Origin: Bacteroidia bacterium
Lineage (GTDB): Bacteria > Bacteroidota > Bacteroidia > J057
Reading direction: 5' to 3'
Assembly (NCBI GenBank): GCA_033391075.1
Contig: JAWPMV010000001.1
Location: 4,960,001-5,024,000 of the forward strand
Length of the DNA: 64,000 nucleotides
Shown: positions 19,233 to 21,879 of the stretch, in pieces
Layout of the letters: every line of letters starts with the position of its first letter
Position numbering within the stretch: position 1 is the stretch's first letter
Position numbers and translations under genes: made by a program
Notes under the pieces: model-generated
What the model saw: only the letters and a program-made list of their open reading frames with translations
Database searches by the model: none
What the model was told of the DNA's origin: nothing

Positions 19233-19279
19233 AGCTGAGTAAGCCTTAGCAAGACTAAAATGAGTCATCCTATACTTGC

Positions 19280-19475
19280 CTAAGAGCTAGGGAAGAAAAG
19301 AATTCTTAGTTTGTGGTATTTGAATAAGCAGCAAAAGGAGAGGGGATAAATCCGTTAAGTGTCATTGGTTTAAAAAACCGTCCGGGATGTTGGTTTCCCT
19401 CTCCCTCTGATCCAAAACTAGAACAGTACAGTAGGCTAAGAGCCAGAATGTAGGATTGATAAGTTCGAATCAGAG
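19280..19475 (+). ncRNA. IS110 bridge RNA with readable target and donor guides
   Basis: A 5-prime stem-loop (CTAAGA 19280-19285 with TCTTAG 19304-19309) precedes two abutting internal-loop modules. The target loop is closed by GGAGAGGG/CCCTCTCC (19337-19344, 19397-19404) with tip hairpin GGTTTAAAAAACC. The donor loop is closed by CTCTGAT/ATCAGAG (19405-19411, 19469-19475) with tip hairpin GGCTAAGAGCC. Guides: GTGTCAT (19359-19365) resembles the left target GAGTCAT. CCGGGATGT (19382-19390) is the complement of ACATCCCGG at the right junction. ACAGTACA (19423-19430) equals the right IS end. TGTAGGAT (19449-19456) pairs with the left IS end ATCCTATA with one G-T wobble. The layout is that of the IS110 bridge RNAs described in 2024. 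Confidence 0.72.
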
Positions 19476-19493
19476 CTGCTCAACTATAGGATT

Positions 19494-20459
19494 ATGGATA
19501 ATAACGTATATGGAATCGACATTGCCAAAAAAAGCTTTGAAGTAGTCTGTCTTAATGATAGTGGGAAAAGCTGGGTAAAAAGCTATTCCAATACTGCTTC
19601 GGGCCATTGTAAATTTATCGAAGTCCTCTCTCAAGGAGATCTCTGTGTCATGGAAGCAAGTGGTCCCTATTATTTATCCCTGGCCTTTAGTTTACATCAG
19701 CATGGGATTAAACTAAGTGTAGTTAATCCCCTGGTCATTCGCCGCTACAGTCAGATGCAATTAAGGCGAACCAAGACCGATCAGCAAGACGCGCGCTTAA
19801 TTGCTCAATATGGACGGGATCACCGAAGCTTTATTAAGCTCTGGCAGCCTCCAGCGGCTATTTTTCTCCGCTTACAGCAGTTTTTGACTAGCATTAACCT
19901 ATTTCAAAAACAGCTCCAGATGCTTCGTAATCAGCTCGAGGCTATGGATCAAGTTCCTATTGTGGATCCTTTGGTGAGAAGTCAGCAGCTTTATCTGATC
20001 GAACAGCTACAAGCTTCGATCAAGCGGCTGGAGCAACAGATGCTCAGCCTTAGTAAAGAGCATTGTTCACAAAGCTATCAGTCGCTTATGAGCATCCCAG
20101 GTATAGGACCTAAGACCGCTTGTTTGTTGATCTGTATTACCCATGACTTTAGCCGATTTGAGTCTGCCAAACAATTGGTCGCTTATTTGGGATTATGTCC
20201 TCGTATTTTCACATCGGGTAGCTCAGTAAAGGGAAAGGAGAGGATCGTAAAAATGGGGCAGGCCTTGGCAAGAAAGTATCTCTATATGGGAGCCTTTTCC
20301 GCGATGAAAGTAAATCCTCTTTGTCAATCTATGGTAGAAAACATGAAGCAAAAGGGTAAACATCATAAAGTCATTAGAGTTGCGGTTGCTCATAAACTCT
20401 TAAGACAGGCTTTTGCTGTAGCTAAAAATAGAACTCAATTTAATCCCAATTTTATTTGA
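19494..20459 (+). CDS. IS110-family transposase (DEDD recombinase)
   Basis: 321 residues, the usual family size. The N-terminal RuvC-like DEDD domain shows Asp9 (GIDIAK), Glu54 (VMEASGPYY), Asp96 and Asp99 (KTDQQDARLIAQ). A coiled-coil region (about 125-190) leads to the Transposase_20 domain: LMSIPGIGPKTA, QLVAYLGLCPR and TSGSSVKGKERIVKMG with the conserved serine. The family works with a bridge RNA that pairs with donor and target DNA. All catalytic residues are present and the frame is intact, so the element may be active. The start lies just after the bridge RNA. Confidence 0.93.
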   Translation: MDNNVYGIDIAKKSFEVVCLNDSGKSWVKSYSNTASGHCKFIEVLSQGDLCVMEASGPYYLSLAFSLHQHGIKLSVVNPLVIRRYSQMQLRRTKTDQQDARLIAQYGRDHRSFIKLWQPPAAIFLRLQQFLTSINLFQKQLQMLRNQLEAMDQVPIVDPLVRSQQLYLIEQLQASIKRLEQQMLSLSKEHCSQSYQSLMSIPGIGPKTACLLICITHDFSRFESAKQLVAYLGLCPRIFTSGSSVKGKERIVKMGQALARKYLYMGAFSAMKVNPLCQSMVENMKQKGKHHKVIRVAVAHKLLRQAFAVAKNRTQFNPNFI

Positions 20460-20560
20460 CTTTTACTACAGTACATCCCGGGTTCTCAGGATGACTCATC
20501 TTAGTTTTTATGACTGCTTCTAATAAATGCTTAAAGCTTCTGTCCCAGGCTTTGTTTATA

Positions 20561-21250: not shown

Positions 21251-21292
21251 GTATAAAAAAGAAACTGGCCTGTCAACGAATCAACAGGCCAG
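21251..21292 (-). terminator. Rho-independent terminator of the cold-shock gene
   Basis: A perfect 9-bp stem, CTGGCCTGT (21265-21273) with ACAGGCCAG (21284-21292), closes a 10-base loop. It is followed on the minus strand by TTTCTTTTTTAT. It sits 22 bp after the stop at 21315. Confidence 0.85.
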
Positions 21293-21314
21293 AGTTAAAT
21301 ATGACGCTTAAATG

Positions 21315-21515
21315 CTAGTCCCGTACCAAAGATACATTCACTGCATTCAATCCTTTTTTTCCTTGTTCAGTTTCGTAAGAGACTTTGTCTCCTTCGGTAA
21401 TCGAAATTCCACCTAGTCCGTTCTTATGAACAAAAACATCTCTTCCACCATCATCAGGTGTAATGAATCCGAATCCTTTTTCTTCGTTAAAAAACTTAAC
21501 TGTACCGTTATTCAT
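21315..21515 (-). CDS. CspA-family cold-shock protein
   Basis: 66 residues, the full length of a single cold-shock domain. [24 protein letters not shown] contains RNP1 (KGFGFI) and DVFVHKNGL contains RNP2 (VFVHK); the end is [12 protein letters not shown]. It is a single-stranded nucleic-acid-binding RNA chaperone of the cytoplasm. It has its own terminator and a long upstream region with repeats and a stem-loop, which suggests post-transcriptional control as in other csp genes. Confidence 0.95.
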
Positions 21516-21879
21516 TATAAAAATTTAAGATAAAAAAGAAGATATAAGAACATATACCTTCATCATGTCGGCAATATACGACATTCTCAACGTATATGGC
21601 TTAATCTTTTGCGCTTTCTTAAGCTAAAGGGGAATCTTTGCGCTTATTAGGCTAGAAGTTTAGCCATTTCGCGCCTGATTAGGCTCATTATTTGCAAAAA
21701 TCAATAAAAAGACTGGCCTTGTAAAAGGCTTTTCTGATCTCAATAGAATGAAATATCGTCCATTTGGCACATGAGATGTATCAAGGGACTCGAATTTGAT
21801 TTGCAGAAAAACGCTCAGATGAAATTTTCAGAAATTATTATCTGATCGTATTCTGGAACGATTGCCTTTGGTTTCTCCT
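21516..21879 (-). promoter_or_regulatory. Leader/upstream region of the cold-shock gene with a stem-loop and three repeats
   Basis: A perfect inverted repeat, ATATACG (21574-21580) with CGTATAT (21591-21597), lies about 60-80 bp upstream of the start. Further out three related units end at 21625, 21653 and 21685 (minus-strand pattern AGCCTAATnAGCGC, loosely conserved). A structured, temperature-responsive 5-prime leader is possible. Beyond 21690 I see nothing up to the next gene. Confidence 0.35.

Follow-up and report, generated by a model that had tools for sequence, protein, structure and literature searches.

Does the left non-coding end of an insertion sequence encode an RNA that tells the recombinase of the same element where to insert? 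This question is raised by a locus at 19267-20476 of a 64,000-nucleotide stretch of DNA from a Bacteroidia bacterium (hereafter the window; G000:C1:4960001-5024000 of a 9.49-Mb genome in five contigs), which had been predicted to be an IS110-family element with a readable bridge RNA. Every testable feature of the family was found at this locus, and we regard it as nearly certain that it represents an intact, recently mobile IS110-group element whose bridge RNA guides the recombinase to TGTC-AT-CCCGG, where transcription of the RNA, the circle, RNA binding and catalysis are steps that we infer.

Nine copies with common ends delimit an IS110-group element

The element, its gene and its junctions are located in the window as follows.

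19267-20476, + strand: full-length IS110-group insertion sequence of 1210 bp, AT cores at both ends included (nine same-ended genomic copies)
19267-19268, no strand: left AT core (copy boundaries; single AT at unoccupied sites)
20475-20476, no strand: right AT core (copy boundaries)
19263-19266, + strand: left half of the target, AGTC, which is TGTC in the other eight copies (copy comparison)
20477-20481, + strand: right half of the target, CCCGG (9/9 copies)
19494-20459, + strand: DEDD recombinase (transposase) gene, 321 aa (PF01548, PF02371; similarity to IS621 and ISCro4)

Eight further full copies were found in the same genome, and among the resulting nine, three were identical, one had a single-base difference and five had 16-19 differences. 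All of them start with ATCCTATA / ATCCTATACTTG and finish with ACAGTACAT / ACTACAGTACAT, so that the predicted boundaries proved exact and no copy ended at other bases. Beyond these ends the copies share the target only: each is preceded by TGTC, replaced by AGTC in the window copy, and followed by CCCGG, i.e. TGTC-AT-CCCGG with one mismatch in one copy. The recombinase reading frame is open in 9/9 copies; the element is intact, and the identical copies support recent mobility. A DNA search of 60 relatives yielded no copy outside the own genome, the sole match being 26 bp long in one relative. The non-coding ends measure 227 nt on the left and 17 nt on the right, and inspection by eye revealed no subterminal inverted repeat of 7-17 bp in them; this long left and short right end, an RNA upstream of the transposase gene and the lack of a long subterminal inverted repeat place the element in the IS110 group and not in IS1111.

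The recombinase contains an N-terminal PF01548 domain (8.9e-24) and a C-terminal PF02371 domain (1.9e-23), both above cut-off, and these two domains together with the conserved serine assign it, as far as its sequence goes, to the IS110 (DEDD) family. The closest solved structures were those of IS621 (8wt6, E 1.5e-37) and ISCro4 (9t56, E 6.9e-37 over residues 5-317), the latter likeness concerning the protein alone, and we consider the recombinase fold settled because of the similarity to the solved IS621 structure. D9, E54, D96, D99 and a serine motif had been said to be kept; in an alignment of nine proteins all four acidic residues and the serine, S241, were invariant, which is consistent with DEDD and serine catalysis as the presumed activity. 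Scans with the single protein against genomic and viral contigs gave no relatives of the recombinase, which were recovered by an alignment-based protein query.

Two partial structures were also observed. A solitary 37-bp left end of the element (G000:C1:5940281-5940317, 92% match), devoid of a transposase gene, abuts an inverted copy of its own first bases to form a small palindrome, TGTCATCCTATACTT...AAGTATAGGATGACA. In Polaribacter marinus (L160:1148-1481), a stretch of at least ~180 bp from the start of the element is tandemly repeated within its own bridge-RNA gene, representing either self-insertion or an assembly artefact near the contig end.

A covarying RNA structure lies upstream of the recombinase gene

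The left end had been proposed to fold into a target loop followed by a donor loop, as listed below.

19328-19481, + strand: bridge RNA, modelled part comprising target loop and donor loop (model R1, covariation)
19337-19404, + strand: target-binding loop closed by the stem GGAGAGGG/CCCTCTCC (helix 1, paired in 98.8% of cells)
19405-19475, + strand: donor-binding loop closed by the stem CTCTGAT/ATCAGAG (helix 4, covariation)

The true 5' end of the RNA is probably at about 19285. Folded alone, the left end was weakly better than its shuffles (z −1.58), so the structure rests on covariation. The covariance model R1 (155 positions) was built from seven aligned elements, the consensus including compensatory changes, and scored the own element at 139.2 bits (E 9e-31), this sequence being part of the training set. 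In 36 aligned R1 hits, 92.3% of cells were paired and 249 cells carried double changes against 72.5 in shuffled alignments, although these counts lean toward the model structure since A2 and A4 were themselves aligned to R1; sliding the structure by one base lowered pairing to 48% or less. R1 RNAs were present in 18/395 genomes of the class and 14/395 of the phylum sample, the recombinase gene was directly downstream of most hits, and in most relatives the RNA was located about 12-40 nt upstream of that gene. When loci were picked by protein similarity alone, R1 detected the RNA just upstream of the transposase gene in 80/80 of them, a few of these being from the same genomes as earlier R1 hits. 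The covariance model thus accepts the proposed fold and its order of loops, and finds the RNA widespread next to IS110 transposase genes in Bacteroidota, indicating a putative bridge RNA with covariation-backed target and donor loops, which would be transcribed.

An Rfam search of the region returned no bridge RNA, even with the E threshold relaxed to 1. Elsewhere in the window, the cspA thermoregulator family of Rfam weakly matched 21262-21586 on the − strand (E 0.0041, 23.7 bits where the gathering score is 78). Three loci (L111, L086 and L088) carry relic bridge RNAs that still match R1 and in which the recombinase gene is deleted or truncated. They were considered as "orphan" bridge RNAs without a transposase and rejected as such, since L111 retains a short transposase remnant, recognized by eye, and L086 and L088 retain truncated N-termini. 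Two weak R1 hits, L112 and L115, have no transposase gene.

The predicted guides vary in step with the landing sites

Four guides had been read in the two loops, and all were located where predicted.

19360-19365, + strand: left target guide TGTC plus core AT (copy flanks, permutation tests)
19382-19388, + strand: right target guide CCGGG with core AT, together the reverse complement of ATCCCGG (copy flanks, permutation tests)
19423-19430, + strand: left donor guide ACAGTACA, same sequence as the right end (copy ends)
19449-19456, + strand: right donor guide TGTAGGAT, pairing with the left end ATCCTATA with one G-T wobble (copy ends)

The predicted target guides match both sides of the insertion site, the window copy having a mismatch to its own guide at −4 of the left target, and the predicted donor guides match both ends of the element. 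For the right donor guide, the pairing with one wobble is as originally described; the identity of the left donor guide with the right end extends through that end and the A of the core, the next guide base being G and not T. When the left end was shuffled 200,000 times, TGTCAT with CCGGGAT following it within 60 nt arose in 19 of the shuffles.

In a first set of 12 elements, whose guide-flank table was transcribed by hand, right guides matched their flanks at 56.5/60 positions (35.7 after shuffling) and left guides at 41.9/44 (35.5 after shuffling). In 45 further elements extracted automatically, the right guides gave 203.4/225 matches against 103.8 (sd 7.1) for shuffled pairs, and covariation of the left guides gave p 0.013, a modest signal because the left guide hardly departs from YGTC among the relatives. 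In total, about 60 relatives were compared, in which guide and landing site vary in step: for instance, the genome G485 holds two variants differing in both guides and, accordingly, in their targets, L110 and L118 having the guides CGTC and CCGGGAT and the site CGTC-AT-CCCGG, and L120 having GGTC and TCGGGAT and the site GGTC-AT-CCCGA. The left ends of the relatives likewise track the donor guides (ATCC/ATCG/ATTC/ATAC), where the ends in one set were partly located via the guides themselves. Across the relatives, these comparisons show statistically that target and donor are chosen by pairing, and the expectation that guides follow the flanks at other insertion sites was borne out. In two elements of the genome G515 (L113, L119), the donor loop contains an insertion and the left donor guide mismatches the right end, while the target guides match.

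When each position was evaluated separately, the right guide was informative from +1 to +5 and at none beyond, and the left guide at −3 and −4, positions −1 and −2 being nearly invariant. Guide information is therefore confined to −4 to +5, which defines a target of 4 + AT + 5, i.e. 11 bp. The guides quoted in the original prediction were correctly positioned but one to two bases too long; since pairing stops at −4 and +5, neither the first G of GTGTCAT nor the GT of CCGGGATGT contacts the target. The latter GT corresponds to AC in the right end of the element itself.

The same data bear on a reading in which the recombinase protein alone reads the palindromic repeat and the likeness of the RNA to the target and the ends is incidental. 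The targets in the own genome are indeed hairpin-forming repeats, and the left half-site YGTC hardly varies among the relatives; nevertheless, with one element taken per guide class, the right guides of 22 classes predicted their own flanks at 97/110 positions against 39.9 when swapped, and the match ends sharply at +5, as expected of pairing by a defined guide, which makes recognition by protein alone very improbable. We give as little credence to the left end regulating the transposase gene as a 5' untranslated RNA (an attenuator or antisense target) instead of serving as a guide. Its position close upstream of the gene in most relatives would suit such a role, and small RNAs are reported to regulate the transposase of ISPpu9 (PMC8450116), yet regulation alone leaves the matches of guides to flanks and to ends unexplained. 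The two roles could coexist in the left-end RNA.

The landing site at the end of a host palindromic repeat

The perfect target TGTCATCCCGG occurs unoccupied 42 times in the own genome, the reversed control 0 times, and variants with a different first base 8 times, from which about one in six perfect sites is calculated to be occupied. Most of the inspected sites are the ends of a ~90-bp palindromic repeat, TGTCATCCCGG...CCGGGATGACA, which is abundant in the own genome (L029-L058), REP/BIME-like and contains two hairpins. The orientation of insertion relative to the 11-mer was always the same at occupied sites. Unoccupied repeats carry a single AT, so that the AT found at both junctions would be shared between element and target. 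The window copy is an exception to the insertion of most copies in this repeat family: the genes on either side of it converge, and it interrupts a strong hairpin, unrelated to the ~90-bp repeat, that looks like a two-way terminator; the joined flanks of this copy fold at −31 kcal/mol. Spread of the common target by homologous recombination between repeats rather than by guided insertion, for which the residence of most of the nine copies within one repeat family could be cited, is the least probable reading of all, given that the left flanks diverge just past the 9-11 bp target, that the window copy is in an unrelated hairpin and that relatives obey the same rule in other genomes.

A predicted promoter at the circle junction

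In addition to RNA-guided insertion, the ends of the element point to a promoter that would be built upon their joining.

19271-19278, + strand: −7 box TATACTTG of the predicted junction promoter (consensus TAnnTTTG, PMC7366714)
20455-20458, + strand: −33 box TTTG of the predicted junction promoter (with a 20-bp spacing to the −7 box after end joining; overlaps the transposase stop codon)

The Bacteroidota primary sigma factor recognizes a −33 box TTTG and a −7 box TAnnTTTG (PMC7366714). When right and left ends were joined in the order of an excised circle, TTTG-20 bp-TATACTTG was formed in the own element. The pattern NTTG-20-TAnn(T/C)TTG spanned the junction in 23/26 elements, which are not 23 independent observations because the boxes are shared by descent, against a mean of 0.06 for shuffled ends, whereas in the integrated form, with the native left flank in place of the right end, it was present in 1/25. 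The boxes are near-invariant and the spacer is variable except for the guide-bound bases. This newly seen junction sequence, TTTG-N20-TAnnTTTG, would thus act as a Bacteroidota-type promoter.

Combining these results with what is known of the family, RNA-guided transposition of the element would proceed as follows. Excision would join the right and left ends around one AT to give a circle; the joined ends would build the promoter TTTG-N20-TATACTTG, from which the left end would be transcribed into the bridge RNA. Its donor loop would pair with the circle junction ACAGTAC-AT-CCTATA and its target loop with the chromosomal 11-mer TGTC-AT-CCCGG, favourably at the end of the host ~90-bp palindromic repeat, and the DEDD recombinase, using this RNA, would recombine the two at the common AT, leaving an AT at both ends.

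Relation to known IS110 and IS1111 elements

IS621 of E. coli (PMC11208160, PMC11208158; 8wt6), whose protein is distantly similar to the recombinase (E 1.5e-37), resembles the element in its DEDD recombinase with a conserved serine, in a bridge RNA in the long left end with the target loop ahead of the donor loop, in four guides with a common core dinucleotide, in REP-like targets and in a junction promoter that forms in the circle only. The two differ in the core (AT versus CT), in the junction promoter (Bacteroidota TTTG/TAnnTTTG versus sigma-70 in IS621, PMC11208160) and in the division of the 11-bp target, 4+2+5 versus 7+2+2 (PMC11208160), the core of the element therefore being three bases further left; the element has neither the CT core nor the 7+2+2 target of the IS621 type. 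IS621 has already been reprogrammed experimentally to an AT core, and some of its orthologues have longer right guides, AT cores having been used by design (PMC11208160), so neither an AT core nor a longer right guide is foreign to the family.

The AT core was confirmed at both ends in nine copies, but calling it a new case was too strong: 51/65 recombinases in the lineage tree have AT, making it the commonest core of the lineage, and TT appears in two separate groups. No earlier description of AT as a common core of this lineage was found in the text of the papers searched. Nearly all named hosts of the relatives belong to Bacteroidota (among them Flavobacterium, Sphingobacterium, Mucilaginibacter, Polaribacter, Membranihabitans and Pontibacter); a few are Balneolota, and other phyla contribute single records. 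On balance we lean, by a narrow margin, toward a large Bacteroidota IS110 lineage having its own bridge-RNA layout: an AT (sometimes TT) core, an 11-bp 4+2+5 target whose left half hardly changes from YGTC and whose right half varies freely and tracks dispersed host palindromic repeats, and a junction promoter adapted to the primary sigma factor of Bacteroidota. If so, its recombinases might work in Bacteroidota hosts and recognize sites not favoured by the CT-core IS621. AT-core recombinases with short left and long right guides, and a junction promoter that suits Bacteroidota, offer starting points for studies on what sets core and guide length. The element itself, with four readable guides and ends confirmed by nine copies, is a neat natural test case for bridge-RNA targeting in hosts other than Proteobacteria, and its relatives represent dozens of natural guide-target reprogramming events.

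ISPpu9, ISPpu10, ISPa11 and ISRm19 (PMC1525189), also of the IS110 family, have every copy in REP sequences, comparable to the repeat targets of the element, but their hosts are Proteobacteria, whose REP families differ; ISPa11 is an IS1111-group member, and its RNA follows the transposase gene (PMC11187229). TT-core cousins of the element (L067, L070, L072, L075 and L077 at G209:C1:111-138 kb; L196, L197, L201 and L202 on CP096136.1) occupy TT-TGTTA sites, which resemble integron attC core sites (GTTRRRY). Several copies lie within about 20-30 kb and adjoin a tyrosine recombinase that resembles integron integrases but scores below the TIGR02249 cut-off (G209:C1:146593-147408, G736:C1:1972612-1973430). 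These cousins appear to target attC-like sites and are, like the IS1111-attC elements ISKpn4 and ISPst6 (PMC11187229), RNA-guided DEDD systems, of which they are possibly the IS110-group counterpart in chromosomal integrons; elements of the IS1111 group carry subterminal inverted repeats and an RNA that follows the transposase gene, whereas the RNA of the cousins is upstream. Separately, the own genome encodes two integron-integrase-like tyrosine recombinases, at G000:C1:2802951-2803763 and G000:C2:170589-171371, which score below the family cut-off.
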